From assembly GCA_964019135.1 (NCBI GenBank), contig OZ025263.1, positions 24,985,639-25,049,638 of the forward strand: a DNA stretch of 64,000 nt. The letters are read 5' to 3'. The position numbers were made by a program, and so were the translations under genes. The notes beneath the pieces are model-generated. The model was not told the origin of the DNA. It did no database searches and saw nothing but the letters and a program-made list of their open reading frames with translations. This DNA comes from Arenicola marina. Lineage: Eukaryota; Annelida; Polychaeta; Arenicolidae. Every line of letters starts with the position of its first letter. The first letter of the stretch is position 1. Below, piece after piece: positions 3,001 to 62,291 of the stretch.

Positions 3001-4599
3001 TGTGAGACTGAGACTGAGCTCTGTGAGACTGAGACTGAGCTCTGTGAGACAGAGACTGAGCTTTGTGAGACTGAGAGACTGAGCTCTGTGAGACTGAGAC
3101 TGAGCTCTGTGAGACTGAGCTCTGTGAGACTGAGCTCTGTGAGACTGAGCTCTGTGAGACTGAGACTGAACTCTGTGATACTGAGCTCTGTGAAACTGAG
3201 AGACTGAGCTCTGTGAGACTGATACTGAGCTCTGAGAGACTGAGCTCTGTGAGACTGAGACTGAGCTCTGTGAGACTGAGACTGAGCTCTGTGAGACAGA
3301 GACTGAGCTTTGTGAGACTGCGAGACTGAGCTCTGTGAGACTGAGACTGAACTCTGTGATACTGAGCTCTGTGAGACTGAGAGACTGAGCTCTGTTAAAC
3401 TGAGCTCTGTGAAACTGAGCTCTGTGAGACTGAGACTGAGCTCTGTGAGACTGAGCTCTGTGAGACTGAGCTCTGTGAGACTGAGACTGAACTCTGTGAT
3501 ACTGAGCTCTGTGAGACTGAGAGACTGAGTCCTGAGAGACTGAGCTCTGTGAGACTGAGCTCTGTGAGACGGAGCTCTGTGAGAATGAAAGACTGAGGCC
3601 TGTGAGACTGAGAGGCTGAGCTCGCTGAGACTGAGGCTGAGCTCTGAGAGACTGAGAGACTGAGGTCTGTGAGACTGAGAGACTGAGAGACTGAGCTCTG
3701 AGAGATTGAGCTCCGAGAGACTGAGCTCTGAGAGACTGAGAGGCTGAGCGCTGTGAGACTGAGAGAGCTCTGTGAGACTGAAACGGAGATCTGAGAGACT
3801 GAGCTCTGTGAGACTGTGAGACTGAGCTCTCTGAGACTGAGACTGAGCTCTGTGAGACTGAGCTCTGTGAGACTGTGAGACTGAGCTCTGAGAGACTGAA
3901 CTCTGTGAGAATGAGAGACTGAGGTCTGTGAGACTGAGAGACTGATCTCGGAAAGACTGAGAGACTGAGCTCGGAGAGACTGAGAGACTGAGCTCTGAGA
4001 GACTGAGCTGTGGGAGACTGAGAGACTGGGCTCTGCGAGACTGAGCTGTGGGAGACTGAGAGACTGGGCTCTGAGAGACTGAGCTCTGTGAGACTGAGAG
4101 ACTGAGCTCTGTGAGACTGAGAGACTGAGCTCTGTGAGACTGAGAGACTGAGCTCTGTGAGACTGAGAGACTGAGCTCTGTGAGACTGATACTGAGCTCT
4201 GAGAGACTGAGCTCTGTGAGACTGAGACTGAGTTCTGTGAGACTGAGACTGAGCTCTGTGAGACTGAGACTGAGCTCTGTGATACAGAGACTGAGCTCTG
4301 TGATACTGAGGTCTGTGAGACTGAGAGACTGAGCACTGAGAGACTGAGCTCTGTGAGACTGAGACTGAGTTCTGTGACACTGAGACTGAGCTCTGTGAGA
4401 CTGAGACTGAGCTCTGTGAGACTGAGACTGAGCTCTGTGATACAGAGACTGAGCTCTGTGATACTGAGCTCTGTGAGACTGAGAGACTGAGCTCTGTGAG
4501 ACTGAGACTGAGTTCTGTGAGACTGAGACTGAGCTCTGTGAGACTGAGACTGAGCTCTGTGAGACTGAGAGACTGAGCTCTGTGAGACTGAGCTCTGTG

Positions 4600-38847: not shown

Positions 38848-40780
38848 TTGTCAATCCATCGCTGTGCTCTATTTCTCCACGCACTTCCCCCTACACAGTG
38901 TAGTGGTCTCGCCCAGGACTTTCACGCTCACTCGTCGCGGAGAAGGCGAGTTCAACTCCCTCTCTACAGTGCAGGGTTCTCGCATATTTCACGGCTTGCT
39001 TGCTGTGAAAAGCCCGGGACACATTACCCAATGACTGTGCTCTATTTTTCCACACTCGCCCCCCGTTGTAAATGCGAGTCCGTCCTTTCTCTATACCACA
39101 TAGTGCAGCGGTCTCGCTTATTTCACGGCTTGTCTGCCGTGAAACCCCCGGGACACCCTACCTAATGACTGTGATCTATTTCTCCACGCTCGCCCCCCGT
39201 TGTAAATGCGAGTCCGTGCTCTCTCTATACCACATAGTGCAGCGGTCTCGCATTTTTCACGGCTTGCTTGCCGTGAAGACCCCGGGACACTTCATCGCAT
39301 GGCTGTGACCTATTTCTCCACGCACGTTCACCGTGGAAAATTAGGGTTCGTCTCTGTATACTACATGTTGCATTGGTCTCGCATATTTCACGGCTTGCTT
39401 GCGTTAAAAGCCCGGGACATCTCATCGCATGGCTGTGCCCTATTTCCCCACGCCCGGTCTCCGTGGAGAATTAGGTTCTGTATACTACATGTTGCATTGG
39501 TCTCGTATATTTCACGGCTTGCTTGCGTTAAAAGCCCGGGACATCTCATCGCATGGCTGTGCCCTATTTCTCCACGCACGTTCACCGTGGAGAATTAGGT
39601 TCTCTATACTACATAATGCATTGGTCTCGCATATTTCACGGCTTGCTTGCGTGAAAAGCCCGGGACATCTCATCGCATGGCTGTGCCCTATTTCTCCACG
39701 CCCGGTCACCGTGGAGAATTAGGTTCTCTATACTACATAATGCATTGGTCTCGCATATTTCACGGCTTGCTTGCGTGAAAAGCCCGGGACATCTCATCGC
39801 ATGGCTGTGCCCTATTTCTCCACGCACGTTCACCGTGGAGAATTAGGTTCTCTATACTACATAATGCATTGGTCTCGCATATTTCACGGCTTGCTTGCGT
39901 TAAAAGCCCGGGACATCTCATCGCATGGCTGTGCCCTATTTCTCCACGCCCGGTCTCCGTGGAGAATTAGGTTCTGTATACTACATGTTGCATTGGTCTC
40001 GTATATTTCACGGCTTGCTTGCGTTAAAAGCCCGGGACATCTCATCGCATGGCTGTGCCCTATTACTCGACGCACGTTCACCGTAGAGAATTAGGTTCTT
40101 CATACCACATAATGCATTGGTCTCGCATATTTCACGGCTTGCTTGCGTGAAAAGCCCGGGACATCTCATCGCATGGCTGTGCCCTATTTCTCCACGCCCG
40201 GTCACCGTGGAGAATTAGGTTCTCTATACTACATAATGCATTGGTCTCGCATATTTCACGGCTTGCTTGCGTGAAAAGCCCGGGACATCTCATCGCATGG
40301 CTGTGCCCTATTTCTCCACGCACGTTCACCGTGGAGAATTAGGTTCTCTATACCACATAATGCATTGGTCTCGCATATTTCACAGCTTGCTTGCGTTAAA
40401 AGCCCGGGACATCTCATCGCATGGCTGTGCCCTATTTCTCCACGCCCGGTCTCCGTGGAGAATTAGGTTCTCTATACTACATAATGCATTGGTCTCGCAT
40501 ATTTCACGGCTTGCTTGCGTGAAAAGCCCGGGACATCTCATCGCATGGCTGTGCCCTATTTCTCCACGCACGTTCACCGTGGAGAATTAGGTTCTGTATA
40601 CTACATGTTGCATTGGTCTCGCATATTTCACGGCTTGCTTGCGTTAAAAGCCCGGGACATCTCATCGCATGGCTGTGCCCTATTTCTCCACGCACGTTCA
40701 CCGTGGAGAATTAGGTTCTGTATACTACATGTTGCATTGGTCTCGCATATTTCACGGCTTGCTTGCGTTAAAAGCCCGGT
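38848..40780 (+). repeat. 124-bp tandem repeat, left arm of foldback locus (about 15 copies)
   Basis: The first three units are longer (about 133 bp) and contain a CCCCGTTGTAAATGCGAG segment. From 39,393 to 40,757 there are twelve copies spaced exactly 124 bp. Each carries two hairpins with 9-nt loops: TTTCACG/CGTGAAA (39,634-39,656 for example) and TTCTCCACG/CGTGGAGAA (39,568-39,594). The sequence after CTCCACG alternates between a CACGTTCACC form and a CCCGGTCWCC form, giving a 496-bp tetrameric higher-order period. Short open frames on both strands repeat with the unit and are not genes. Confidence 0.95.
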
Positions 40781-40958
40781 GTAACATGACCAGCTGTCCC
40801 ATCATGACAGCGTGTCCCCCCTGCAGTTCGGGTATACGCGCGGAGGAGGTCACTAGTTATGAGAGGGACACATTGTCATGGGCTGAATATACCTTGAGCG
40901 GACATGGGGGTGGGGGTGGAGGTGGGCATGTTGTCATGGGTTGAATATAGCTATGACC

Positions 40959-41158
40959 NNNNNNNNNNNNNNNNNNNNNNNNNNNNNNNNNNNNNNNNNN
41001 NNNNNNNNNNNNNNNNNNNNNNNNNNNNNNNNNNNNNNNNNNNNNNNNNNNNNNNNNNNNNNNNNNNNNNNNNNNNNNNNNNNNNNNNNNNNNNNNNNNN
41101 NNNNNNNNNNNNNNNNNNNNNNNNNNNNNNNNNNNNNNNNNNNNNNNNNNNNNNNNNN
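40959..41158. other. Assembly gap (200 N)
   Basis: Exactly 200 N. The left side ends inside ATAGCTATGACC and the right side resumes at GCACGGAATTACC, which are adjacent landmarks of the same ~100-bp unit. The round length suggests a placeholder rather than a measured gap. Confidence 0.98.
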
Positions 41159-41346
41159 GCACGGAATTACCGATTTATGTGGGTTAAGGGACATGGGGAG
41201 GGGGGGGGGACATCCTGTCACGGGTTAATATACAGCTATGACCAAATGTCCCCTTAGTTTAGCATAGGACCACACATCCAGGTGGGTTAAAGGACATCGG
41301 GAAGGAGGGGAACGTGTTGTCATGGGTTGAATATAGCTATGACAAG

Positions 41347-42222
41347 ATGTCCCCTTATTCTAGCACGAGATTGCGGTTCTATATGGGTTAAGGGACATCG
41401 GCAGGGGGAGGGGGACATGCTGTCACGGTGTAACATGACCAGCCGTCCCCCCATGACAGCGTGTCCCCCCTGCAATTCTAATGTATACGTGCAAATGAGG
41501 ACACAAGTTATGGGGGGACATGTTGCCATGGGGGGACGCCTGGTCATGTTACACCGTGACAGCATGTCCCCCCCCCCTGCCCATATCCCTTAACCCACTT
41601 AGATGGGTAATTTCGTGCTAGAATAAGGGGACATGTGGTCATCGCTATAATCAACCCATGACGACACGTCCCCCCCCCCTTCCGGGGTACCTGAACCCAC
41701 CTGAATGTGTGGTTCAATGCTAAACTAAGGGGATATTTGGTCATGGCTGTATTTTAACCCGTGACAGGATGTCCCCCCCCCCTCCCCATGTCCCTTAACC
41801 CACATATATCGGTAAGCCCGTGCTAAGCTAAGGGGACATCTGGTCATAGCTATAATTAACCCATGACAACATGTCCCCCCCTCTCTCTATCCCTTAACCC
41901 ACCTGGAACAGTGATCCAATGCTAAACTAAGGGGACACCTGGTCATGGCTGTATTTTAACCCGTGACAGCATGGGGGACGTGTCGTCATGGGTTGATTAT
42001 AACGATGACCACATGTCCCCTTATTCTAGCACGAGATTGCGGTTCTATATGGGTTAAGGGACATCGGCAGGGGGAGGGGGACATGCTGTCACGGTGTAAC
42101 ATGACCAGCCGTCCCCCCATGACAGCGTGTCCCCCCTGCAATTCTAATGTATACGTGCAAATGAGGACACAAGTTATGGGGGGACATGTTGCCATGGGGG
42201 GACGCCTGGTCATGTTACACCG
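41347..42222. repeat. 210-bp direct duplication in the core (666-bp offset)
   Basis: 41,347-41,556 and 42,013-42,222 are essentially identical, from ATGTCCCCTTATTCTAG through the inner hairpin. The second copy joins directly to the reversed 124-bp repeats, so it looks like the copy that defines the right edge of the core. Confidence 0.9.
41427..41555. repeat. Near-perfect inner hairpin of the foldback core
   Basis: GGTGTAACATGACCAG then GTCCCCCCATG on the left pairs with CATGGGGGGACG then CTGGTCATGTTACACC on the right, a stem of about 28 bp around a loop of about 70 bases. A second copy of this module lies at 42,093-42,221. The pairing continues outward through TGCTGTCACGG and CCGTGACAGCA. 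Confidence 0.92.
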
Positions 42223-42830
42223 GGCTTTTAACGCAAGCAAGCCGTGAAAAATATGCGAGACCAATGCAACATGTAGTATACAGAACCTAATTCTCCACGG
42301 TGAACGAGCGTGGAGAAATAGGGCACAGCCATGCGATGAGATGTCCCGGGCTTTTCACGCAAGCAAGCCGTGAAATATGCGAGACCAATGCAACATGTAT
42401 TATAGAGAACCTAATTCTCCACGGTTAACGTGCGTAGAGAAATAGGGCACAGCCAAATATGCGAGACCACTGCACTGTGTGTTACAGAGATAGCACGGAC
42501 TCGCATTTACAACGGGGGGCCGAGCGTGGAGAAATAGAGCACAGTCATTGGGTAGGGTGTCCCGGCCTTTTCACGACAAGCAACCCGTGAAATAAGCGAG
42601 ACCGCTGCACTATGTGGTATAGAGAGAGCACGGACTCGCCTTTACAACGGGGGGCGAGCGTGGAGAAATAGAGCACATGCAGTCAGTGGGTATAGAGTGT
42701 CTCGGACTTTTCACGGCAAGCAAGCCGTAAAATATGCGAGACCATTTCACTGTGTACTGAGAGGGAGCAGGACTCGCCTTCTCCACGGGGAGCGAGCGTG
42801 AAAAAATAAAGCACAGCCATGGGCTCTGCC
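42223..42830 (-). repeat. 124-bp repeat family in reverse, right arm of foldback locus
   Basis: Four to five units are in reverse orientation. The inner two match the ACCGTGGAGAATTAGG type. The outer ones match the longer type with CTCGCATTTACAACGGGG. The order from the centre outward mirrors the left arm. One inner unit (about 42,455) is truncated. The right arm has far fewer copies than the left, so the left arm was expanded, or the right contracted, after inversion. Confidence 0.92.
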
Positions 42831-43520: not shown

Positions 43521-44769
43521 TCTACACGCTTGCTAACCCAGTCATATGAGGAACGTTCGTTTTGTCCGTGCCGGCCGCACTAGTTTTACAAGCCCCATCC
43601 GGAGAAAAACGCGCATCCGAGTCAACGCGCCTACGACCGTCATGTGGATTGGGGCTAAAGCTAACCAGGAGAGAGAGACATAGTGGGAGAGAGGGACGGG
43701 AGGGTGATGAAGCTGGCCTTTGTCTCGTCTCAGATAAACCTAGTTATCACCTTTCTGGTGGGGGCTCACTGAGCAAGAAGAGGACTAGATCTTCAGATTT
43801 GTGCCCTTCGCTGCCCCCTCTCATATTCTGTAGCCCCCCCCCCCCCCCCACACACACGCCACCCCCGAGGGCATGATTAACCAGTATGTGCGTCAGGGGG
43901 CCGCGATTAGGGGAGGGAGGGTGGGGGGGAGCTGTGTCACCCCGGGGAGTCACGCGCCGCGCTCAGCCTTCATTACCCCTCGGGCCTGTAACCTCCACGT
44001 TTCGTCGCCTCTCATACAAGTGTCGCCTGCGGGGCACGAGTTTCACTCGACTGTGGGTGTGTTCAATGAGACATGGGCACTTCTTAGGTCACCAAGCCCT
44101 GTCGACTCCCAGGTGCCGTTCCTTTTACCATGAAACGTGATCCCGTACCAAGGTTTGGTCGAGGGAAAGTCATGAACAATGACGGAAAGAAATGAAATCT
44201 TGTGTGTTTTTTAACTAGCTGAAGGCTGAATCGGTCAAGGCACCCCCCGGGACAAGGAGAAACGAGGGTTTTTCAGATCGGGTTATCAGATCACTAAGAA
44301 TAAATGTCTTCATTCCCAGGTAACGATGAATTCAAATCCTTCATCACGGCGGTCGGCTAACATCCCATTCCCAGTTCATGAAGAAGTATGTTTCGCATTC
44401 CCAGTTCACTGTGAAATGAAACGCCCATTCCCGAGGAACGGAAATACCTCTCCCCCCCCCCCCCTCCCTCCCACCATGGTACCAGCGGGGGCTGTATCCT
44501 TGAAGGATGGCGGAGACACATCGGCGGTAGAGTGCAGCTTCGCAGATTACAGTCGCTGTGTAGTCAACACCATGGTGATACAAGGAGAATACAATTATCA
44601 CCACAATATCACCATGATATTACCACAAGAATATTAGGACATATCATTCTCACACCTAGAAAGCTGTCCGCACGACATGCTGCTCTGTCAGCAGCTGGCA
44701 ATGGGCCATGCCGCTCTCACATTAACAGGCCAGATAGTCAGGAGGAATAATGGCATATATAGCCGGTGG
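43521..44769. other. No recognised gene between foldback locus and transposon
   Basis: Contains a C run near 43,837-43,850 and another near 44,452-44,464. Open frames on both strands are short and Pro/Gly/Arg-rich. Three CATTCCCAGTTCA-like words near 44,310-44,430 are the only local repetition seen. Confidence 0.5.
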
Positions 44770-45260
44770 GGTGGAAATAGAGTAAAGACCTTTTTTGTCG
44801 ATTTATATAAGTTCACAAAGGTCTCTGACAACATTTTCCGAAGGGTGTGCACAATTTTGGTCCTGGGCATTTTTTTAAATTCAAGATGGCCGCCACGACC
44901 ACAAATTCTCAATAAAATGGTCATAACTTTTTAAGTATCTGCGCTAGAGATATAAAATATGTGTCTATACCCAGTATTTCACATACGAGGAATCTATTGG
45001 AATAGTTCATTATGTGATTTAACCACACCAGTAGTACGTAAATCCAATAGGACGGCCAAAATGCCACAAAGTCGGCCTATATATTCAAATTAAGGACATT
45101 GGCTTCTTGATATCATCTGTGTGTTTATTAATTGGACACAAGGTTTATGATACACCCGTTAAAACCGTTCAATGTTGACCACATATTAATACAGATATCC
45201 GAGATAAATGCTACAGAATGATGTGATGCCGTGCTAGAGGCTGTTCACAGAAACTAGGTA
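44770..45260 (+). repeat. Left terminal inverted repeat of the nuclease transposon
   Basis: Pairs with 47,948-48,441. Conserved blocks include TTTTTGTCGATTT, ACATTTTCCG, CACATACGAGGAATCTATTGG and GATGCCGTG. It contains AAGATGGCCGCC at 44,883, a YY1-like sequence that could be a host factor site. That possibility is speculative. Confidence 0.9.
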
Positions 45261-45271
45261 TGTCTTCTCGC

Positions 45272-47865
45272 GACAAAATATGATCCGAAAATTCCTCAGG
45301 AATATCGTAAACAAGCATACCAAATACGAAGCTACGAGAAATCAGGTGGACAAGAGTATAAACAATACATACTCAATCTTTGTCAGAAGAGGAATGACAA
45401 CCATGGTGAAACTGTACGTGAACGGGTCCTATTGCTTTGCTACTGTCCAAAATATCATCCGAATTCGACCATGAATCACTGTTCCATCAGTTCGGGTACT
45501 TCAAGTCCGTCATCACAGTGCTTGGAGGCATGCACGCTGCTTCATGCGACTGCTATCATAATGGCTGGCAGCCATATAAAAAGAGATTCTTGTCAGCACA
45601 TTTGGAAGGGCCGGTAAAATGTTGAGTGGGAAAAAATATTCACAGAATTTTCGTGCCCTCAGGTGGCGTCGTACAAGATCAAGGATATCATTTGCTCGCC
45701 TCATCGAAGTGCTTGACGCTCGAGCAAGCCGCAGCAGAACTACGAAGTTGTGGACGGACTACCTTGCCAAGACTGATCATAATGATGACAGTCTATCGTG
45801 CGGGACATGAGGGGGATTGGGTTCTTCATCTCTTATATGCGGAAGCTATGTTGCCGTATCTGATCTGCTGGTTGCCACAACTACGCGCGGTATGCTGCCT
45901 CCTACATTCATCGCATGAAAGGCCTCGATCCAAAGCTGATGAAGAAGCTACATGGTACCGTCGCGCGACACATCGCTGGCATCTATAACTCAACCTGGAC
46001 GGACATGTTCATAGAGACAACGTGCATGCGACTTGGTCACGGACCAGCTGGAGCTGTAGTCATAACCACAGACTATCACCAGATGGTAACGTGGGCCCTA
46101 AACTTGTCTCTGAGCGCGGAACTCTCACACAATGTTCGAGCTATGAGCAACGATCACCAGGATACTGTCTAAACTCACCATAAAGAAGAAGCGAAGGGTC
46201 GAATCGAGGCAGACAACTGGATCGGCGGAGCCTACTAAAGTCACTGGATGATTGCATTGACCCATTGGATGATGTCTCTCACCATGAAGGTGGACTGATG
46301 ACCATTGTCATAGGAGAAGTGGATCATCCTGATGTCAATGCGGATGATGCCATCAGGCTCGGAGAGCGGCGACTAAGGTACTTCAAGGCTGGTTGGCCGG
46401 GATCTTTCTACAATCATCTCGCTAAGCTGGTAGTTACAATGGACGTGAGAAAGAAACATGTGTTGGTCGGCAAGGAGCGAGTCTATGATCAGGAGCTAAT
46501 CTATGCTCGTGTAATTGGCCTACTAGCAAGTTCTCGTCAAATCAATCTCGATGACGTGTTGGCTTGTGAGTTAGCGGCATACCCACCATCGATGTTCAAC
46601 CCAGACGGCCAAATGAAGCTGGTGAAATCGAAATCGACGCTGACGAAGAAACCCCAATTCACTATATCGGACCGCAACTGCCCACTCCCCGACATCGTGA
46701 TCTATGACGTCTGTGCACTTCTCTGGGTCATTACCTGGCTGTCTGATAAAGACCGTGCATACGTGGATGCATGTAAAGTAATCGTCCAGCAAGCGCTACA
46801 GCACACAGATGTCATCCTCGTGTTTGACAGATACTTCGCCAACAGCATTAAGAACTTCGCAAGGATGCGTAGATCAGGATTCAGTCGAGTTCACAATCTG
46901 ACGCCAGATATGGTCGCTCCGGCCAGGCAAGCTATTCTCAGCAGCACCAATAACCAGGTCCAACTGAACACCATGCTTGCAGAAGCCATTCTGGATTCAG
47001 ACTTATACATGACATAGACGTCTTTGTCCTGCTCGTCCACTTCTACCACAGCCACTGCGAAGACCAGCGTGCTGCCCCAATGATCATATCATCTCCAGTG
47101 AGCAATAGAACAATGGTAGATATTCGCACGATTGCAGAAGTGCACAGTGGCACAGCATGTGATCTTCTGGCAGTGCATGCACTATCTGGGACCGACACTG
47201 TAGTTTTATTGCATGGCATAGGCAAGACAACTATCCTCAAAGGATGCCAGAAGGCATGTTATTCAGTCTCGAAAGTTGGTGATGACAATGCTGACATGCA
47301 ATCTCTTGAAGTTCAGGCCACGAAGTTCATATGTGCTGCATATCGGAAGGCGACACAATCATGTTTTACGATGACGGAATTCAGACTGAAAATGTGGCGC
47401 ATCAAAACAGGGAAGAGTGGCGCAACCTCAGGGAAACTCTCCTCCCTTCCACCCACCAGTGAAGCATTCACCGAAAATATCCACAGATGTCCCCTTCAGG
47501 TAGCCATATGAAAGGCAGCACTTCTGGAGTCACCCCCCGAAATGGACCAACGAAATATGGTTGCGAGCTAGACCATCAAGGCATGCCGCTCCCAAGGACT
47601 GTGACAGCAGATACGCGTTCTGCACCGGCAGATATACCCCAGCTTAATTATCCACTGCAACTGCAGATCTTCTGGATGCCAAACTGCACCTTGCAGCTGT
47701 TCCCATATAGGATGCACAAGATGTTGTTTATCGGGGTGGGGGGGGGGGGGCGGAGAAGATTGTAAGAACCCTCTTACACAAATTATGTCACAAGAAGGAG
47801 GATCTGAAACGAAGGAAGAAGCTCAGGAAGGCGAAGACGAGGATGCGGAAGTTATGTTGCAGTAA
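45272..47865 (+). pseudogene. Broken gene for an uncharacterised FEN1/XPG-like nuclease protein
   Basis: Coding sense is spread over three frames: frame 2 to about 45,870, frame 3 to about 46,170, frame 2 at 46,265-47,017, then frame 1 from 47,017. The N-terminal half (EGDWVLHLLY, CHNYARYAASYIHRMKG, WTDMFIETTCMRLGHGPAG) resembles multicopy uncharacterised proteins I associate with corals, molluscs and echinoderms. The 250-residue fragment at 46,265 shows IVIYDVCALLW (Asp 148) and VFDRYFANSIKNFARMRR (residues 186-203), which match the first acidic residue and the FDG...K...R region of XPG/FEN1 nucleases. After a deletion the frame resumes with DVFVLLVHF, then LSGTDTVVLLHGIGKTT, which resembles the helix-turn-helix of that fold. 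The acidic tail ends at TAA 47,863-47,865. An internal stop also occurs after the HTH region. Confidence 0.75.
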
Positions 47866-47947
47866 TACGGACGGCTAAAGTAATAGAGGTTTCATTAAAG
47901 TGAGCAAGCACGAGCATATTGAATTTCTTCCTTGTACGTATAAATAG

Positions 47948-48441
47948 GTACCCATTTTCGGTGAACAGCCTCTAACACGGCATCATGTGATTCTGTAGCA
48001 TTTATCTTGGATGTCTGTATTCAGTTGTGGTCAACATTGTATGGTTATAACGGGTGTATCGTAAACCTTGTGTCCAATTAATAAACACACATATGATATC
48101 AAGAAGCCTATGTCCGTAATTGGAATATCTACGCCGACTTTGTGGCATTTTGGCCGCCATTTTGGATTTACGTATTACTGATGTCTTTAAATCACATAAT
48201 TAACCATTCCAATAGATTCCTCGTATGTGAAATACTGGGTATAGACTCAGATGTTATATCTCTAGCGCAGATACTTAACGAGTTATGACCATTTGATTGA
48301 AAATTGGTGGTCGCGGCAGCCATCTTTGATTTTAAAAATTGCCAAGGACCGAAAAATGTTGCACACCCTCCGGAAAATGTTGCCTTATGCCTGTATCAAC
48401 TTATAGAAATCGACAAAAAAAATCTTTACTCCGTTTCCACC
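47948..48441 (-). repeat. Right terminal inverted repeat of the nuclease transposon
   Basis: Reverse complement of the left arm with scattered differences. It contains an AATAAA at 48,080-48,085 that could serve as the poly(A) signal for the plus-strand gene, and a YY1-like word in reverse near 48,316-48,328. Confidence 0.9.
48080..48085 (+). promoter_or_regulatory. Candidate polyadenylation signal of the transposon gene
   Basis: AATAAA lies about 215 bp downstream of the gene's stop codon, inside the right TIR. The hexamer is present, but its use is inferred from position only. Confidence 0.4.
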
Positions 48442-49959
48442 TTATGTGGGATTTCCTCCTGACTAAGAGGGCAAGGTGGGGGAAGGGTTACTGTAAGAGG
48501 GTATGCTCGGCAGTGCACATAATGTCCCAGTCGGCCGCTGGGGGCGCTTCTATACGAGATGGCATCCCGGAAATAACCCCACCCTACAGGACGGGACACC
48601 GGAAGTGACGCGTCCGGCAGATGGCGCTGACGACACACGTGGAGATGCATGGATGTGGAGATGACCGTCCCAGGCCAGCGCAATAATTCACCGAAAGAGA
48701 GACGCCATTATATAAGGATTAGGTTGATAGTGATCGGGTACGATGAAAACCATAGCAACACAGAAAGGTTAAGATATAAAACAATTAAGGGTGCACAGCC
48801 CAGCCACATGCTGCCGCTAACGAAGAAGCATTCACGTGGCATTCTGGTGTGGGTCCGGGTGATCCCGGATGTAAAGTGTAAACAATCTCTCCCACCCTCC
48901 CACTCTCATTTTGTTTAGAATCTCTCCGCCCCCACCATCGTAACCGGTATCCATGAATGAATGGTTATTCAATAACAAGGATAATATCGGATCCAAGCGA
49001 CCATGCTTGAGTTTGAGGCTTTTTTGCCATTATTTAAACCTAATTTTAAGTTTTTACATGTTTTTAAAGGAACAACATTCATTTGCATTGCCTCGTTCAA
49101 TTTATGTTTGATGGATCATTCATTCATTCAGTATGTTAACAAGATCGGAACAGTTCAGAAATACTTCCGTTTGCCGTATTCGTTACCATTAATACCCAAT
49201 GAAGATAAATTGGATTGGACAAGAAAAACGTCCCCTCTGAAATATGCACAGCTCGAACTCGGTTCGTTGCTGTTATGCATCTGCATTTGTCAGCATTATA
49301 GTTCGTTTCAATATTATATGCACCCGCCAACCTAGTTCGAGGTTCAATATGTCTGTCTGGGTCAATAGCGATATCAGAGGATGCCTTTCTCAATACAAAT
49401 ATAGGTCACCTCAGGTTGTGGACAACCCTCCCCCACTCATATTCCCCCTTTTTGAGAGGACCCCCCCCATGTTTGTAGATTACATGCTTTTTTCGAGTTC
49501 GCCGGTTTGCGATATCTGTCTATCTATAAGTATCAATACCCTAGAGATTTGAGTACACAGGCACCGGTGCCGGAGTTCTAATTATCCATAAGGACCCCAC
49601 GTGAAGGAAAATAAAAGTATCTATACGAGTAAATAAGATATATTGTTGGTCTAAGGCGTTCGTAATCACTACTGGCAAATATGCGTGATACTGTCCCCCA
49701 AACACACTAATCGGATGGTGTTACAACTCGCGTTGAGGCCCTTGGCCCCAGCAATGACGTCATGTACTGGATGAAGGCAATATGGCGACGCTATGATGCG
49801 CGGAAGATTTTGTCCAACGGTTCTGGTTTCAAATTACAAATAAACGGCCTGGCTCCCCTGTGGGTTTGAAAGTCGATCTTTCCAGATCTGTCACGTAGCA
49901 TCACCGCTCTCAGGGGGCTATTAACTTCTACAAATAATCCCCCACTCAGTGTAAAGTGT
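48442..49959. other. No recognised gene
   Basis: Mixed sequence with a C-rich stretch near 48,893-48,935. Open frames at 49,003-49,552 show no recognisable domain. Nothing else could be supported. Confidence 0.5.
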
Positions 49960-51953: not shown

Positions 51954-52231
51954 TAGCCTGAAAACAAGACGTTACTGTCGTAAGACAGTTGGCAATGAGA
52001 CGACATGGTAACGTCTGAACTCATCGCACTTGTTCCCTGTTCAAGAAACCTATTTCAACATCTTGACTAAAACACTCACTTGTCAGCCGTATTTTGAAAT
52101 CACATATTTCTTCCTTGATATAAATCAAAGCGTGGGCACACAAGAGTCGCACTCATTCAGGCAAGATAACTCCATAAATCAACATTTTCACGAACGCGCA
52201 ATTTCACTTCTCTCGCGATCAGCCATGATGG
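51954..52231 (+). repeat. Left TIR of the helicase-bearing element
   Basis: Pairs with 53,809-54,066. The segment from AACGTCTGAACTCATCGCAC to GATCAGCCATGATGG is almost identical in both arms. A small indel near 51,978-52,010 distinguishes them. Confidence 0.92.
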
Positions 52232-53509
52232 TTTTCGTAGCGACACCTTCCGGGGTGCGGCGAACTAAGAATTCTGGAGACACACACGAAATACACACAG
52301 ACAAACGCTCAAGTTCTCAGTCCGTAATTTTAAGTATGATCCGCATGCAAATCGACCGATAAAACAATGGAAATAATTACTTAATAATATATTATACTAT
52401 TGAATACCGTTTATTATACATGAAAAATAAAATCAATTCAAAAATTCAATGTTGATTCTACTGTACAAGGATTTCCCACGCGTCAGGCTGCAAATGACGT
52501 CAGCATTGTTCGCCGGTTACCATGACTGCGGTGACTGAGTTCATTGCTGACTGGAACAAGAACATGTGGCACCATGGCCGATAATCTCTGTGTCGTCTGT
52601 AAAAGCCAGTTTGCAAAGAGAGCAACTGGTTACGGGTTTTCTAAGTAGGCCCATGTCTATGCATTTAATCTAAGTCTTCTACACCTTGTACCCATACACA
52701 CACGTTCCCACGCTTGTACACCAATGCATGTATACCCAGCACCGTCGGAGCAAAATGAAAGTGATGGGGTAGACATTGTGACATTAGGTGGATGATATCG
52801 GGCTAAACTCCCTGGTAGGGGGAGGGAGGGGGGCTATTGTACAAATACGGTGGGGGGATGGGGCTTGCCGAGAAAAACCCAGTTTCTTTAGCGCTCGCAC
52901 GCCCCCCCCCCCTCCCCCCCCCCCCACCAATGAACAGGGTCCCCCCTGTTTGCAGCCCATTAATCAGCATCCTCCCCGGCCGGTTGGCCCAGATTCCAAA
53001 GTTGTATAGCGCCGCACGCTCGCACTAGGGACAGCAACAGCTAGTATTTAAAACGCAACTTTCACTCGGCCAACTGCTAAAGCCAAACTCCCCGTTTATT
53101 CAATTACGATCTACATTTCTAGTTGCTACATTGCATACTATGCATATTACTTTCATAGCAACCAACTCAATAATCCCACCGCCCCAGTTGAACCCGCCCG
53201 TCCAAATACACACACTCGCGCCGCCACTGTCACCGCTCGCGACCGTCCACCGCCTCGCCGCTCCTTGTTGTTCTTTCCCTCGTTATTGAAACAGCGCTTG
53301 TATATATATCTAGTCTAGAGATGATAAGCCATGCCGTGGTGTCGGGCCGGGACTGTTACCATGCGATCGATGTAAGCCGGCCAGCTGCTCTTAATAATAA
53401 GGCTGGGGCGCATTGTTTCAGAATTTTCCCAGCATTTATATTAAAATAAATTCCAGTTAATGGTACCGCTGTTTCAATTAAATATAGAAATAGGTAGCCC
53501 TTAATTTAC
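52232..53509. other. Interior of the helicase-bearing element
   Basis: No second helicase exon or transposase was recognised. An AT-rich stretch lies at 52,370-52,450, C runs near 52,903-52,925, and a GC-rich stretch near 53,180-53,280. The intron following the helicase exon (minus strand) would begin at 53,509. Confidence 0.5.
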
Positions 53510-53695
53510 CTCGGCAATGTCTTTCATCAGAGGCGGAAAAACATATATGTCACTCTTGCCGTGACCGGTGGGCAGAACGCAAAAGACATCTTGCCCATCA
53601 AAGGGGCGTTGTATGGCAGTAACCTGCTCCTGGTTCTGCTCATAAGGCAGGCTCAGCTCCTTTGCCACTTGCTTAATAAGACTTTGCAAAGACAT
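53510..53695 (-). CDS. First exon of a RecQ-like superfamily 2 helicase (partial)
   Basis: The start is ATG at 53,695. The 62-residue product contains a QEQVTAIQ stretch, placed like the helicase motif 0/Q region, then VLPTGHGKSD. This is a Walker A (motif I) of RecQ type, LPTG(x)GKS, which would bind ATP phosphate with the Lys. The frame ends at GAG followed by GTAAAT, a good splice donor, so the gene is split. Motifs Ia to VI were not found downstream within the element, so this copy cannot make a working helicase. The exon begins about 115 bp inside the right TIR and reads inward, as expected for a transposon's own gene. A captured host exon is the alternative. Confidence 0.75.
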
Positions 53696-53808
53696 GACAT
53701 CCGATTGGAAACCACCCGGTCATTGAACGTACACGGAACGGCCAACGCGCTGAACCTCCAGTAGGCGAGTTCGTGGTGGCGCCGCCCTGGAGGCATGTTG
53801 ACAGAGAG

Positions 53809-54066
53809 CCATCATGGCTGATCGCGAGAGAAGTGAAATTGCGCGTTCGTGAAAATGTTGATTTATGGAGTTATCTTGCCTGAATGAGTGCGACTCTTGT
53901 GTGCCCACGCTTTGATTTATATCAAGGAAGAAATATGTGATTTCAAAATACGGCTGACAAGTGAGTGTTTTAGTCAAGATGGTGAAATAGGTTTCTTGAA
54001 CAGGGAACAAGTGCGATGAGTTCAGACGTTATCTTGCCGTAAGCTGAGTAACGTCTTTTCAGGCTA
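53809..54066 (-). repeat. Right TIR of the helicase-bearing element
   Basis: Reverse complement of 51,954-52,231, ending in TTTTCAGGCTA. It probably supplies the promoter region for the minus-strand helicase exon. That role is inference from position. Confidence 0.92.
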
Positions 54067-54075: not shown

Positions 54076-56066
54076 GTGACCTTACAAGTGACATGTGCAT
54101 TCTCTCTCGTGGCTACTGTGATATATGGTATCATGCTGTTGTTATCGCTCAGACGTGTCGCACAATATCAAACAAATACCTGCTACAAATAATATGGATA
54201 CGTCTCACTTATATGGCGAGCGCAGCTAGCGTTCCAGGTCCAAATTGAAAGCAACAGGGATGACAAAAAAAAGTTGCAAGATTATTTTACTTTCACACAC
54301 AGGTTAATGTTTTATGTATATACTACATAAGTTCAACATTCCATCTAAAGAGTCACTAATAGAAATGTAGTTAAAGCGCTATCAAACAGTGCAGTTTTAA
54401 GAGAGCCCCAGTATAAATTTGATCACATAAAGTCCACGGTATATTGAAAAAGAGTTTAATTATATATCATATTTATTCAATCATAGTATTGCTAATAGAT
54501 ATAAAGAGTTTATCTTGTTGTTAATTTGCCCTTTTGGTACCTTGCAATCGTAAATTAAACCACGGGGCATTAACATAGACTGACCAGTGAACTTAAAAAA
54601 ATATGTAACAAAGCCAAGAGACTTGCAGACCACCAGGTTTGGTGCTCACTTCCAATTCAGTTGTAGTGTTCTCATGATAATTTTTTCAACTTTTTCACAT
54701 TGTGAAAACCATTTTGTAAATCCATAAAATTGCACATATTATATTGCAGTGAACCGATATTACCAGCCACACCGGCTATATGACCACATCAGGTAAATCA
54801 ACAACACGGAATGCCGCTGTAACGTCAACGACTCGGTATAAATAGCGGCGGTATATGAGACCTGGGGGGAATTATGTTCCCGCCAGCTGAATGGCGTCGC
54901 TTCCAATACCAAAGCTGATCATCAGCTCTTCGTACGGACGTCGCTTTCAGTTCTGATGAGCTTCACTACGCTCCACAATGGAATGGCAATCTATGCAGCA
55001 ACCTCGAGATTATGAGTGTGAATGGAGGCTGAGAGCGACTTGGAGAGGCTGAGAGCGCCACGACGTTTGTCGCCGTGTGAAGGTAGTCCATGGTAACCTC
55101 GGTCACCGTAACCTTGGTAACCAGGCACAATATTCTTTAGGCGGAACATTGCTGCTCTAGCCATGGCATTATCTATTTTTACTGAATTGTTTGTCTCTCT
55201 AAATGCCATGACATGGCAACGAGCTAGATGAGACGAAGCTAAATGGCAAGGAGCCAGATGAGGCTTTGTTGGTGACATCCCGCGACGTTTGCTGAGACCA
55301 CCACATGTCTTCAGGCTTCTCTTTAGCAGTTACTTTGTTGCGAGGTCGGTTAAGAGACCAGCCCAGACACGTTCACCAGATGTTCTTCCCACTCAACATT
55401 TGCTCAGCCGCAGTTGGTGTGTACATATGGTCAATTTACCTCATTGAGTCCGGATCTCGCCCTCACATGTGCGATACATCCCTTTTTTTGTTCTATAAAC
55501 GTAATTCTTTACGATTTACGTTTTTCGTTTATTAAAAATTCACATTCTGTATGGAACCGAATGGCACAAGATCTGCGTCTGCAGTCACTTTAGAAAACAT
55601 TCTCAGCGCTGGAAAAAAATACACATTGCAATTACGATATTTGTTTCAAACTCCACGGTTAAACTTTAACGACATTGATACTAGAACACTATAACACCGC
55701 GTGGTCGTCATCATAGAGTCCACTTCTTCACCTTTTATTGCCAATAGTAAATTTATCCCGACTGGTTCAATCGGCAAATAAATATTTGGACGAATCAAAT
55801 CAACCTGACTGTGGGGGGCGGGGGGGGGGGGGGGCACATTGAGCGAGTCTCTGGTGGCAGCTAACGTCTTGTGAGTAAATCTAGCTGTTTTAATGTCCAC
55901 ATCCGGACAGCACACAATTAAAGAATGCAGTTGCAGGTTTAACATTGCGCGCTGGTGTTTTACCTTTAAAGCGGCATTTCTTTTAAAACTGTTCAAGTTA
56001 GTGAACATTTGCGTCAGTTTATTTAGCATTGTTGGCAGCAGTCAGGTGTCAGAGAGAACATGTGAC
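54076..56066. other. No recognised gene
   Basis: AT-rich from 54,180 to 54,760. There is a G run near 55,818-55,833. Open frames on the minus strand near 54,991-55,278 and 55,646-56,029 show no recognisable domain, and the second crosses the G run. Confidence 0.5.
54837..54845 (+). promoter_or_regulatory. Candidate TATA box
   Basis: TATAAATAG is a full match to the eukaryotic TATA consensus, in GC-richer surroundings than the DNA to its left. No clear gene follows. The first ATG downstream (54,979) opens only 24 codons. Confidence is low. Confidence 0.2.
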
Positions 56067-58397: not shown

Positions 58398-59219
58398 TGA
58401 AGCCCATTTGTGCCGATTTTGAGAGCTGGTCACTTTCGGGACTCCTTCTACCGGTCATGCGGACATTACACTGAGAACCCGTATAACCGGGCCCACAGAC
58501 TCGGGACTTTCAACAAGAACGTTGAAAAAAATCACCCAAGACCAATGGTGGTAAGATTATCTTCACAAAAGGCGGTTTCGGATTTGCTCGGTTTTGCTCG
58601 CAGCCTCCCTAGAGGTAAGGATATGGCAAAGATAACGCCGCACTACCCACCTGAGTTACTCGAGAGCCGCAGAAAGCATGGCGAACAAATAGCCGCTCTC
58701 CAGAAATCTACCCAGTCAGACCTTGTAAATTTCAAACTGGTCAAAGATAAACTCTACATCAACGGTGAGCTACAGAGAGACTCATTGCCTGGACCCACCG
58801 CAAGGGACATCTTGCAGACAACAGCAGGGAATGAAGCGTCGATTACAGGATCACCACCGAGCATTCGCCATGGCCAGCCGGTAACTCACAAGGGGGCTAC
58901 CATGATCACCTCATCGGCGCCTGTGCGAACCATCGGCGAGGTGAGGTCAGCCTACAAAAAGTTGCTGCTCGACCCAAACAGACTTGCCGCAGCTCACACC
59001 GTGGTGGTCTTCCGGCTAACAGGCGACTCGTCGACTGGACCCAAAGATGGCTGGCCAGACGACGGCCTTCACGGCGCAGGCTGCCACCTTCGCTACCTAC
59101 TGAACCGCAAGGGCGTGGAAAACACAGTGGTGTTTATTTCAATGAACTCGCACCAGCCTCATCTAAGCCTCGATGGCTTCCGGGCCATGGAAGAGGCGCT
59201 CAACAGCGTAACTTAACTC
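58398..59219 (+). CDS. LINE ORF1 with L1-ORF1p-like part and C-terminal IMPACT/YigZ-like domain
   Basis: The frame is open from the stop at 58,398-58,400 to TAA at 59,214-59,219. No good ATG begins it, so the true start is lost or upstream. Numbering from 58,410: residues 44-125 (RPMVVRLSSQK, PPELLESRRK, KLYINGELQRD) resemble the RNA-binding and C-terminal parts of L1-type ORF1 proteins. Residues 172-266 resemble the IMPACT/YigZ (UPF0029) fold: AAHTVVVFRL at 193-202, then DDGLHGAG at 217-224 in place of DDGE...AG, then VENTVVFIS at 236-244, then HLSLDGFRAMEEAL at the position of the family's LG...F motif. The family's Tyr-Gly-Gly stretch is replaced by NSHQP. The protein would bind LINE RNA; the role of the added domain is unknown. 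Confidence 0.7.
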
Positions 59220-59540
59220 ACCCGATGTTGTTGTTAGGGTCTTCTTGTCGCTGATTGAAGCTGGTATGTGACCGTGTATTGCATTTGCTGTTTTTGTAAC
59301 ATGTTACCCTTGTTATTGCCTAATGTAGTCTTTTGTTAAAAGGATCCGTCTCGCACAATAAGTAATCGCCGCGCTACTCTACCCATGCTTGTCAATAATA
59401 GAGTCAAATGGGCTGTGTGCTGACGGCAAATGTGGGTTTGTTTCACCTATGTTATTTGTGCCGTTATGACACTATTTTCCAAGTTTAGTTTTCTGCACAA
59501 TTGTTCATATTGCCTTAGGATACAAGTGACATGTACTATT
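59220..59540. other. ORF1-ORF2 spacer
   Basis: AT-rich with frequent stops in all frames. It is probably the inter-ORF region of the LINE plus the decayed start of ORF2. Confidence 0.5.
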
Positions 59541-60684
59541 GAAGCTACATCTACTATTAACTAGATGAGATCTATCATCTATTGGTTCTTGAAAAACATA
59601 CGGATATTATATGCATAGGGGAATCCTGGCTCAACGTTACGATTTCCAACTCGTCGCCGTCTTTGTTCGTGGCAGCTTGTCTGCTCGTCGGCGACCAGAG
59701 TTGGAAAACGATAACATTGAGTCTGTATGGTTAGAGGTTGTGCGGCCGCACCAGAGAGTTCTCATATGTGCATACTATAGAGCGCCAAACGCCCGCATGG
59801 ACTCTGTAAACGAATTCATGTCTCAACTGCAAGACTCCTGGAATAATGCCTCTGCAGAAAACTCAGATACTATTGTTTTAACAGGGGACTTCAATGATAA
59901 ATGCTTAACTTTCGCAGGCAATCACGATGATAGTGACTTGAGGTATCGATTAGTATATTTTGTAAACAATAATAACTTATCGCAACTGATAACCGAGCAA
60001 ACGCGTATAACACCAACCAGTGTTTCTCAGCTTGATCTAGTAATTACTGATTCTCCTGGAAAGATTAGTCAATGCGGAGTTATCTCACCGATATGCAACT
60101 TAGATCATCATATTGTGTACTGCCACATAAAGTATAAGATGCATCACCAGGCTCCGATTAAACAAAATATATACGTTTATAACAATGCCGATTTCATTGG
60201 CATGCGAGAACATTTATCCGCAGCCCCTTGGAATGAAGGCATGGACCCTGGTGCGAGTATTGACGACTGTGTCAACCACTGGAACTCTATGTTTCAAACA
60301 TCAGTGAGTAGATTTATTCCAAGCAATTCAGTTTTTATCAGACCGCGAGACAAACCATGGATGTCGGCGAACATTAAAAGACTTCTCAGAAAGAGGGACC
60401 GCTTGTATAAACGTTTTGCCAAGCGTAGAACCGACTCCTCGTACAAACTATATGTTGATGCCCGCCGAGAGGCGCACCTGGAAATAGACCGGGCCAAGGA
60501 AGGGTATTATGCTAGGCTTAACAGGCGACTCAGAGACCCAAATACCACAAGCACGGAATTTTTTAAACTACGCAAAATATTTTACTGTGATAAAGAAGAC
60601 ACACGGGTGCCCGCGTTATTAGAGAACGGCTTTTGGCTGTCAAACCCACTTCGCAAAGCAAACGTCCTCACTGAATATTTTTGA
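59541..60684 (+). pseudogene. LINE ORF2, endonuclease (APE/EEP) part
   Basis: A short piece in frame 2 at about 59,562-59,640 contains IICIGESWL, whose Glu matches the metal-binding residue of APE-type endonucleases. A frame change then leads to the open frame at 59,611-60,684. There GDFND (residues 92-96), SQLDLVIT (139-146) and NLDHHIVY (163-170) match the catalytic GDFN, SxLDxxxT and SDH motifs. A Leu stands before the final Asp-His where Ser is usual. The later part (residues 240-357) is the linker between endonuclease and reverse transcriptase, rich in Arg/Lys. The protein nicks target DNA to prime reverse transcription. This copy cannot work because of the frameshift and the stop at 60,682-60,684. 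Confidence 0.82.
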
Positions 60685-60765
60685 CTTCTCAGAAAGAGGG
60701 ACCGTTTGTATAAACGTTTTGCCAAGCGTAGAACCGACTCCTCGTACAAACTATATGTTGATGCC
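60380..60765 (+). repeat. 83-bp internal duplication in LINE ORF2 (303-bp offset)
   Basis: 60,380-60,462 and 60,683-60,765 are identical except for one C/T difference. The offset is a multiple of three, so the frame is kept. However, the second copy begins with a TGA stop and replaces the linker that should lead into the reverse transcriptase. Confidence 0.95.
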
Positions 60766-61509
60766 TTGTTGAGAAGTCTTTTAAGTCTGAATATTAAAGA
60801 AACAGCAGAAGTCATAGCCCAGCCACTGGCTGACCTGTTTAATCGCAGTATGGTATCACACAGTTTCCCATGCAGCTGGAAAGAAGCAAATATAACACCA
60901 GTCTATGAGAAAGGAGATAAACATGTGAAAGATAACTATCGCCCTATCTCCTTGCTATCATGTGTTGGCAAAATTATGGAACGAATCGTATGTGATGAAT
61001 TGTATAACAATTGTATGAAAAACAAAATATTAACTTGAAGAAACGCTGGGTTTGAGAAAAATGATTCAACTGTCAACCAATTAACATATATTACTCATAG
61101 AATATATCAATCGCTTGAATGTAACCGGGATTCTATGATGGTATTTTTAGACGTGTCGAAGGCCTTTGACCGGGTTTATCACGATGGACTCCTACATAAG
61201 CTCCAGGCATTTGGTATAACTGGTGACCTACTGTTGTGGTTCAATAGCCATTTGAGTAATCGTAGCCAACGAGTTGTGTTAGACGGTAATGCCTCGGAAT
61301 ATAGAAAAATTAATGCCAGTGTCCCACAAGGTTCGATTCTTGGACCCTTACTGTTCCTTATCTATGTGAATGATATAATAGACGGACTAGAAGGTGACAT
61401 ATTCCTGTACGCGGACGATACATCTGTATTTTTTGTCCTTGATAGCAATAGAAATTCGGAAGCCATAAATCGCGACCTCGCAAAGTTATGGGACTGGGCG
61501 TCTCAATAG
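60706..61509 (+). pseudogene. LINE ORF2, reverse transcriptase part
   Basis: Same frame as the endonuclease part. WKEANITPVYEKGD and NYRPISLLS are the early RT motifs. FLDVSKAFD at 61,144-61,170 carries the first catalytic Asp (motif A). SVPQGSILGPLLFLIYVND is motif B. LYADDT near 61,405 carries the Asp pair of motif C. In-frame stops TGA (61,036-61,038) and TAG (61,507-61,509) interrupt it; both could be single-base changes from TGG, but that is inference. The polymerase copies LINE RNA at the nicked target. All catalytic Asp residues remain, so the decay is fairly recent. Confidence 0.88.
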
Positions 61510-62291
61510 AGGGTATCTTTTAACCCGAGCAAAACAGTGTACATGACATTCAGCAAAAGGCCTCGTAACCCGGACGGCTTACAAATTTATTTTGGCTGTA
61601 CTTTAATGCGTCGTGTTGACAGCCATTGTCACGAGCAATATGAACTGGGCCGCCCAGGTTGACAATATGGTTGACAAGGCGTCTAAGGCCGTGTCACTCT
61701 TTAAACGAATGCTTGGGCGTATTGACAGGAAAACAAAGATGAGTATTTACAAGACAAATATCAGACCACTCTTAGAGTATGCAACGCCTGTGTTTCATGG
61801 TAATCTGACAAACCACCAGTCGCAACGATTAGAAACTGTACAACGCCAGGCCCTGTTGACAACTACAAGAGCTTACTCTAGTACGTCGCATCAACGCCTT
61901 CTGTCTGAAACTGGTGTTGATTCGTTGTCGACAAGTCGTGCTTATTTTTGTGCATGCATGTTCTATAAGATGGTAAAAGGTCTGGCTCCTCAATACCTCG
62001 CTGGTTCCACCCACCGTGTCTGATGTGTCCCATTACTCTCTACGCCATAATAACGACTTTTATCTTCCAGTAATCAAAAAAACATACTACATGAATTCTT
62101 TTTTATGGACCTCTGTCAGAGCATGGAACTCCCTCCCCCAGGACCTGAAAACATCCACGTCCCTCTTATCGTTTAAAACAATGTACTTTGATTCGCCAAA
62201 CGTCCTATATGATATGTTTAAAGCTACATGTGGAGCTGACCGTTGCAACGGCTGTACCAAAATAAACATCAACAGGAAATGTTACCTTTGA
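61510..62291 (+). pseudogene. LINE ORF2, C-terminal region
   Basis: Continues after the TAG with FNPSKTVYMTFS (RT motif D) in frame 1. It then shifts to frame 2 near 61,613 (NMNWAAQVDNMVDKASKAVS, LLEYATPVFHGNLT) and to frame 3 near 62,016 (HYSLRHNNDFYLPVIKK, SFLWTSVRAWNSLPQDL). The last two strings are typical of the C-terminal part of CR1/Jockey/RTE-X-like ORF2 proteins. It ends with a Cys-containing segment (CGADRCNGC) and TGA near 62,289-62,291. Two frameshifts separate it from the RT. Confidence 0.85.

Follow-up and report, generated by a model that had tools for sequence, protein, structure and literature searches.

The nuclease encoded by AcademX DNA transposons is XPG-like. In the accessible part of PMC10045372, target-site duplications measure 3-4 bp in AcademX and 9-10 bp in AcademH, and these features are linked to the encoded helicase and nuclease. 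Academ elements of bivalves have a mean length of 5,565 bp (accessible part of PMC10294476), and the XPG lineage of Academ is not treated in the accessible parts of PMC9587614 or PMC10799480. The further literature searched, as far as its texts were accessible, neither confirmed TAGTC ends for Academ in print nor held a fuller text on the XPG lineage. Here we analysed an element in a 64,000-nt stretch of Arenicola marina contig OZ025263.1 (the window, in whose positions all coordinates are given), which lies on contig C18 of the 867-Mb genome searched. An earlier note had described it as a transposon with terminal inverted repeats (TIRs) whose only recognisable enzyme is a FEN1/XPG-like nuclease. 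Our analysis indicates that the element, whose family we call family A, is very probably a dead, internally deleted, non-autonomous copy from a family of cut-and-paste DNA transposons of the Academ type (AcademX-like). Loss of the other parts would explain why the nuclease appears to be the only enzyme.

Extent, ends and insertion site

The inverted repeats were confirmed, while the bounds first given, 44770 to 48441, proved too narrow: the element is 35 bp longer on the left and 24 bp longer on the right, and sequence common to the family A copies extends past the repeat boundaries drawn before. One repeat pair (44855-45260/47949-48354) covers 406 nt with 88% complementarity, and another (44770-44858/48353-48441) covers 89 nt with 82% complementarity. 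At the outermost ends, TAGTCAGGAGGAA occurs in inverted orientation at 44735 and 48465 (TAGTC...GACTA), the end sequence of family A being TAGTCAGGAGG. The left repeat matched at least 43 places in the genome.

The target-site duplication that the earlier note had suggested looking for was found as AGA, together with an empty site. The 200 bases to the left of the element (44535-44734) were used as the query, and besides the window two places on C18 matched the last 72 bases of this flank, with 97% and 96% identity. In the one of them that was compared (L071), the left flank (70 of 72 positions identical) is joined to the right flank by one AGA with nothing else between them, and the right flank aligned with that of the window over 446 columns at 87% identity. 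Because this paralogous empty site has a single AGA between both flanks, the insertion in the window and its 3-bp duplication are established. An alternative reading of the duplication as TA was dropped, since the palindromic TA belongs to the ends and the duplication comprises the three bases beyond it.

The other family A insertions with both ends seen also carried 3-bp duplications, exact in three of four: TAT at the C11 loci, GAC at C10:38.2 Mb (where the outer two bases of the ends differ) and TTT at C2:16.23 Mb. The fourth, at C2:16.19 Mb, showed ATA/TTA with one mismatch. The remaining loci compared for duplications had one recognisable end or neither.

Table 1. Features of the family A element in the window; bits and E values refer to the profile of related proteins described below.
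Feature	Position	Strand	Details
Target-site duplication AGA, left copy	44732..44734	.	Paralogous empty site L071 on the same contig has a single AGA
Whole element	44735..48465	.	3,731 bp, ends TAGTCAGGAGGAA...TTCCTCCTGACTA
Left terminal inverted repeat	44735..45260	+	Short stretch just within the outermost 13 bp unmatched in the other arm
Doubtful remnant, N-terminal region of the relatives' protein	45258..45614	+	Profile 132-197, 8.9 bits, E 0.0091
Helical-part remnant, following the second aspartate motif	45626..45985	+	Profile 903-930, 11.0 bits, E 0.0022
Remnant with TWTDMFIETT	45864..46169	+	Profile 932-1031, 35.9 bits, E 6.8e-11
FEN1/XPG-like part, N-terminal half remnant (IVIYDVCALLW, VFDRY..K..RR)	46184..47014	+	Profile 1102-1363, 70.3 bits, E 2.8e-21
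FEN1/XPG-like part, C-terminal half remnant (DIDVFVLL, GTDTVVLLHGIGK), other frame	46954..47508	+	Profile 1444-1621, 58.6 bits, E 9.2e-18
19-nt deletion site relative to the C12 locus	47004..47005	+	GDAD/HEEAD stretch missing hereabouts in all 10 loci
Doubtful remnant of the Cys-rich (CXC-like) C-terminus	47605..47862	+	Profile 1668-1716, 4.5 bits, E 0.2
Right terminal inverted repeat	47949..48465	-	
Target-site duplication AGA, right copy	48466..48468	.	Same empty-site comparison

Relatives in the same genome

A genome search with the 277-residue open reading frame (ORF) of the window gave 41 matches, including the window itself and broken or partial family A copies. Nineteen of them, at 25-33% identity, lay in open frames that ranged from 207 to 789 residues and in some cases contained stops. 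Two families were resolved to their ends, both of the TAGTC type. Family B (L055-L057) is a 6.0-kb element (5.75 kb in L057) whose copies are 99.3-99.5% identical. Its ends are TAGTCCGGGCA, its inverted repeats of ~170 bp match at 77%, and its insertions are flanked by the duplications ACA, TGA and TTT. Its L056 copy holds ORFs of 747 and 789 residues in the same frame, separated by a short stop-containing gap. The ORFs of L057 have 747 and 705 residues, and the first ORF of L055 is broken. Family C (L058), 6.16 kb long, has the ends TAGTCGGCCGGCC; its repeats measure ~360 bp (93%), its duplication is ACA, and one uninterrupted frame codes for 1,599 residues. The family B ORFs matched 77 (ORF2) and 68 (ORF1) places in the genome. 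None of the nine loci L060-L068 showed a TAGTC[ACG]GG end, which carries little weight because the stretches reached little beyond the coding sequence. Two scans of viral contigs, with relatives B and C as queries, gave no match.

The relatives share one protein anatomy. Their N-terminal part contains, in order, DNxD, DQ, GGFH or GHLH, a helix-rich stretch and D...E. The second part contains VIDG or VLDG, FDxY..K..RR, HEEAD or GDAD, DTD, GCDTTS..G(I/L)GK and a Cys-rich tail, which is the order of the FEN1/XPG active-site motifs. The D, D and E motifs and the XPG part lie on one protein in family C and on two consecutive ORFs in family B, and both families hold the full set of FEN1/XPG metal-binding acidic motifs. 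Exceptions affect single motifs: L070 has DNxE, L068 has V for the D of DQ, and L066 has K for E. For the first catalytic aspartate, DNxD is a better candidate than a DG motif, which was considered and dropped because it is replaced by AG in L060 and L063.

Structure prediction pointed to a FEN-like fold, presumably of the second part. The AlphaFold2 model of 1,200 residues of family C was poor overall (mean predicted local distance difference test score, pLDDT, 48.7). Its residues 781-1,110 reached ten-residue means of 56-87, except at 841-860 and 901-930 (24-45). Ranks 1-10 of the Foldseek search against PDB were T5 flap endonuclease/5'-exonuclease, plastid exonuclease, Rad2 and FEN-1, the first rank (E 8.5e-4, probability 1.00, TM-score by target 0.52) being the sole match at E<=0.001. 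In a viral structure library, the named top matches of the same model were XRN/5'-3' exonucleases. With the colinearity of the window ORFs described below, these matches support the FEN1/XPG relationship proposed earlier. The predicted strand and helix order of the N-terminal part is, in our own reading, compatible with an RNase-H fold, and we infer from its D, D and E motifs that this part is a DDE transposase. Pfam DUF6589 (PF20231), for which a search of the accessible literature found no mention, matched three of the 20 rows of our alignment of the relatives and the window (A1), scanned singly. In family C this match begins downstream of the second aspartate motif and ends beyond the third acidic motif. 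When the relatives and the window ORFs were searched directly against Pfam, NCBIfam and PDB sequences, no hit reached a cut-off.

Four family B loci (L057 at C14:29.35 Mb, C10:40.37 Mb, C14:1.27 Mb and C13:20.94 Mb) are without ORF2 residues ~555-637, which hold the GCD motif and the GIGK of the XPG part. At two of the four the 705-residue frame is open across the gap. These loci may represent a sub-family that has spread without part of the XPG site. Elsewhere in the window (55264-55374, minus strand), a scrap of 37 residues with one internal stop shows 54% identity (E 4e-7) to residues 157-193 of family B ORF2 and is probably a second Academ-like remnant.

Coding remnants and shared lesions of family A

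The FEN1/XPG landmark peptides that had drawn attention to the element are real. IVIYDVCALLW and VFDRY..K..RR lie in ORF 46184-47014, and DIDVFVLLVHF and GTDTVVLLHGIGK in ORF 46954-47508. The single gene formerly placed between the TIRs stands in so far as FEN1/XPG-like coding sequence is present there, but it is broken into pieces in different frames. A profile of the 18 relatives' rows of A1, from which the two window rows were excluded, matched the element in colinear pieces (Table 1). As a control, window 33301-64000 was shuffled ten times in two-base blocks, and the best scores then ranged from -0.4 to 9.6 bits. Against these values the 70.3 and 58.6 bits of the two ORFs indicate matches beyond chance. 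The first and last pieces (profile 132-197 and 1668-1716) are doubtful because one of the ten shuffles reached 9.6 bits, above the 8.9 bits of the first, for which two other family A loci, L013 and L016, gave E values of 0.035 and 0.042 in the same region. The last piece had E 0.0074 in L016. The region 903-930 was stronger in L013 (E 8.6e-8) and L016 (1.3e-6) than in the window. The E of TWTDMFIETT (codon 46014-46016) falls in the relatives' motif column and is a candidate for the third acidic residue.

Two stretches with motifs of the relatives were missing. The element showed no clear match between profile positions 198 and 902, and only ~520 nt separate the end of the left repeat (45260) from the first clear protein match (~45785), against ~700 profile positions. 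Those positions hold two aspartate motifs, which in family C are DNxD at 512-515 and DQ at ~688-690. This agrees with the earlier statement that no DDE/D triad was seen: the window copy has no DDE transposase domain of its own, and we describe it as a deleted, non-autonomous derivative because it does not match the region of the profile with the DDE motifs. The acidic GDAD/HEEAD stretch with XPG metal ligands (HEEAD at profile ~1408-1415 in family C) was likewise not matched by the profile, so the full FEN1/XPG acidic set is not present in the window copy.

The same losses were seen across the family. The profile scan covered 12 of the 16 fetched family A loci (L009-L024 except L010 and L011, both from C11, and L021 and L022, which are distant). 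Ten of the 12 matched, L018 and L023 being the ones without a match, and none of the ten had a match at profile 192-873 or 1365-1443. The second alternative of the earlier note, that the catalytic domain is lost, is thus supported for the stretch with the aspartate motifs in the window and in the ten matching loci. At the DNA level, none of the ten loci holding the counterpart of window 46920-47080 had room for the acidic XPG stretch. In nine of these ten, 19 nt were absent at 47,004/47,005. They were present at the C12:13.3 Mb locus, and in the alignment of seven loci (the window and six of the 16 fetched) six had the deletion. We read the lesion as a frameshifting deletion in the loci other than C12, because only in C12 is the reading frame open across this point.

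The six loci with the 19-nt deletion lie at different places, and the four with both ends resolved have the duplications AGA, TAT, GAC and TTT. At least four independent insertions, each with its own duplication, thus share the lesions. It follows that family A copies moved when their gene was already broken, and that their own XPG-like gene cannot have acted for them in cis. Pairwise identity in the internal part was 93.7-95.7% among the five aligned loci without C12 and C18:19.9 Mb; pairs fell to 72.6% when C12 and the more damaged C18:19.9 Mb copy were included.

One family A copy, L012 (C11:8082180-8088350), contains at ~1350-3690 about 2.3 kb of DNA absent from the window element. Where its two matching parts meet, they overlap by ~6 bp.

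Family assignment and alternative explanations

The element and its relatives resemble AcademX in having an XPG/FEN-like part within a long transposase-type protein, inverted repeats, 3-bp duplications and, in the relatives, a length of ~6 kb. The nuclease part is supported by the predicted fold of the family C protein and by the colinearity of the window pieces, the part in the window copy itself being incomplete. The duplication length, 3 bp at the window element with its empty site and in families B and C, falls within the 3-4 bp given for AcademX in the accessible part of PMC10045372. The window copy, at 3.7 kb, differs from AcademX in size and in having lost both the aspartate motifs of the N-terminal part and a portion of the XPG part. 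AcademH, the helicase-encoding lineage, belongs to the same superfamily and also carries a large accessory enzyme, but in the accessible part of PMC10045372 its duplications are 9-10 bp; here they are 3 bp, and no helicase match was found in the rows scanned. With the FEN1/XPG/Rad2/T5-exonuclease superfamily, the relatives share the order of acidic motifs (DG, FD..K..RR, EEAD/GDAD, DTD, GCD with GIGK or GLGK) and the fold match. They differ in that this part belongs to a transposon protein, and the window copy is without the EEAD/GDAD stretch. The likeness to DUF6589 consists of a weak family C match, below cut-off and in three of 20 rows. The earlier impression of a layout different from and shorter than Academ was not supported: the shortness reflects an internal deletion, and the long layout with two parts is seen in family B at 6.0 kb and in family C at 6.2 kb.

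Several observations weigh against this assignment. The name AcademX-like rests on architecture and duplication length and not on a comparison with named Academ sequences. The XPG fold match is loose, with TM-scores by target of 0.35-0.56 across ranks 1-10, and the XPG-like part is the presumed aligned region of the family C model. No XPG or PIN Pfam family matched any of the 20 alignment rows, and the best DUF6589 match (E 3.1e-4, 20 bits) was below the Pfam cut-off of 27. A separate model of the N-terminal part was of very low quality (mean pLDDT 42.2) and had no PDB match at E<=0.001 that would indicate a DDE/RNase-H fold. Among the places examined, no copy combined family A ends with an open frame, and mobilisation in trans is presumed. 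Changes at codon positions 1/2/3 among six family A loci were nearly even in three frames (31/25/31, 26/32/28 and 14/17/22; 14/14/21 in a non-coding control stretch). They are not used as proof about selection because most comparison pairs also show little bias: six pairs from other families were mostly even too, with L058-L067 at 13/23/30.

The first alternative of the earlier note was that the XPG-fold enzyme acts as the transposition nuclease; on this view family A would never have needed a DDE part. Only the XPG-like and nearby pieces are clearly recognisable in the window, and a FEN-like fold is predicted in a relative, as this explanation would expect. However, relatives with the same type of ends have a conserved N-terminal part before the XPG part, and family A moved with a dead XPG gene, given that ten of ten loci lack the acidic stretch and nine of ten share the frameshift despite at least four insertions. 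For family A we consider this explanation very improbable. Intact copies with a separate DDE transposase, which the earlier note had named as contrary evidence, exist only in form, as the relatives carry D, D and E motifs; these belong to other families, and the DDE fold is unproven.

Two other explanations concern the name and the spread of the family. DDE-like and XPG-like parts, TAGTC ends and 3-bp duplications could define a new superfamily apart from Academ. The weak DUF6589 match as the only Pfam signal and TAGTC ends unconfirmed for Academ in the accessible literature leave some room for this. On the other side, AcademX is described in the accessible part of PMC10045372 as a nuclease-encoding lineage with 3-4 bp duplications, and the 6.0-6.2 kb of the relatives are near the bivalve Academ mean (accessible part of PMC10294476); we regard a new superfamily as improbable. 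That the copies spread by segmental duplication instead of transposition deserves the least credence of the three. The four C11 copies (L009-L012) do share flanks and duplication and represent one insertion copied, but the window, C10:38.2, C2:16.23 and C11 loci differ in both, and for the window copy the empty site refutes it.

Under the preferred assignment to an AcademX-like family, the ancestral transposase would have been a long protein with Cys-rich termini, between which an N-terminal catalytic part bearing the D, D and E motifs preceded a nuclease part of FEN1/XPG type. In family A, the region of the first two aspartates would have been lost, as would the metal ligands of the XPG part. 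The family would then have been multiplied, presumably in trans by an autonomous relative acting on its ends, and its copies would have decayed afterwards. In intact relatives, the DDE-like part may cut and join the ends at 3-bp staggered target cuts, and the FEN-like part may trim or cut flap or end structures. A more specific proposal, which we offer tentatively and think unlikely, is that Academ-type transposases use two nucleases: at the transposon ends one strand would be cut by the FEN1/XPG-like part, and the other by the DDE-like part, which would also do the joining. If so, defective families such as family A would need both activities in trans.

An apparently XPG-only transposon is thus explained as a deletion derivative of a known kind, and the copy itself is of little import. 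Family B, with near-identical copies and open frames, and family C, with its 1,599-residue frame, combine DDE-like motifs with a FEN-like part and could open the role of a flap nuclease in transposition to experiment.

Other features of the window

Window 1-33339 is a 33-kb tandem array of 15-, 23- and 38-bp units (GACTGAGCTCTGTGA...) with a strong GC skew of ~0.3. Further tandem arrays, of 124-bp and ~102-bp units, occupy 38968-42815 and are inverted around an N run at 40959-41158. At 52000-54040, 237-nt inverted repeats with 97% complementarity lie 1,567 nt apart, and no stop-to-stop ORF of at least 110 residues is contained wholly between them; this is possibly a short non-autonomous transposon. 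Pieces of a retrotransposon resembling a long interspersed nuclear element (LINE) were found at 58401-62020, with YADDT, a reverse-transcriptase motif, in ORF 61039-61506; an 83-bp sequence occurs there twice, at 60380 and at 60683.

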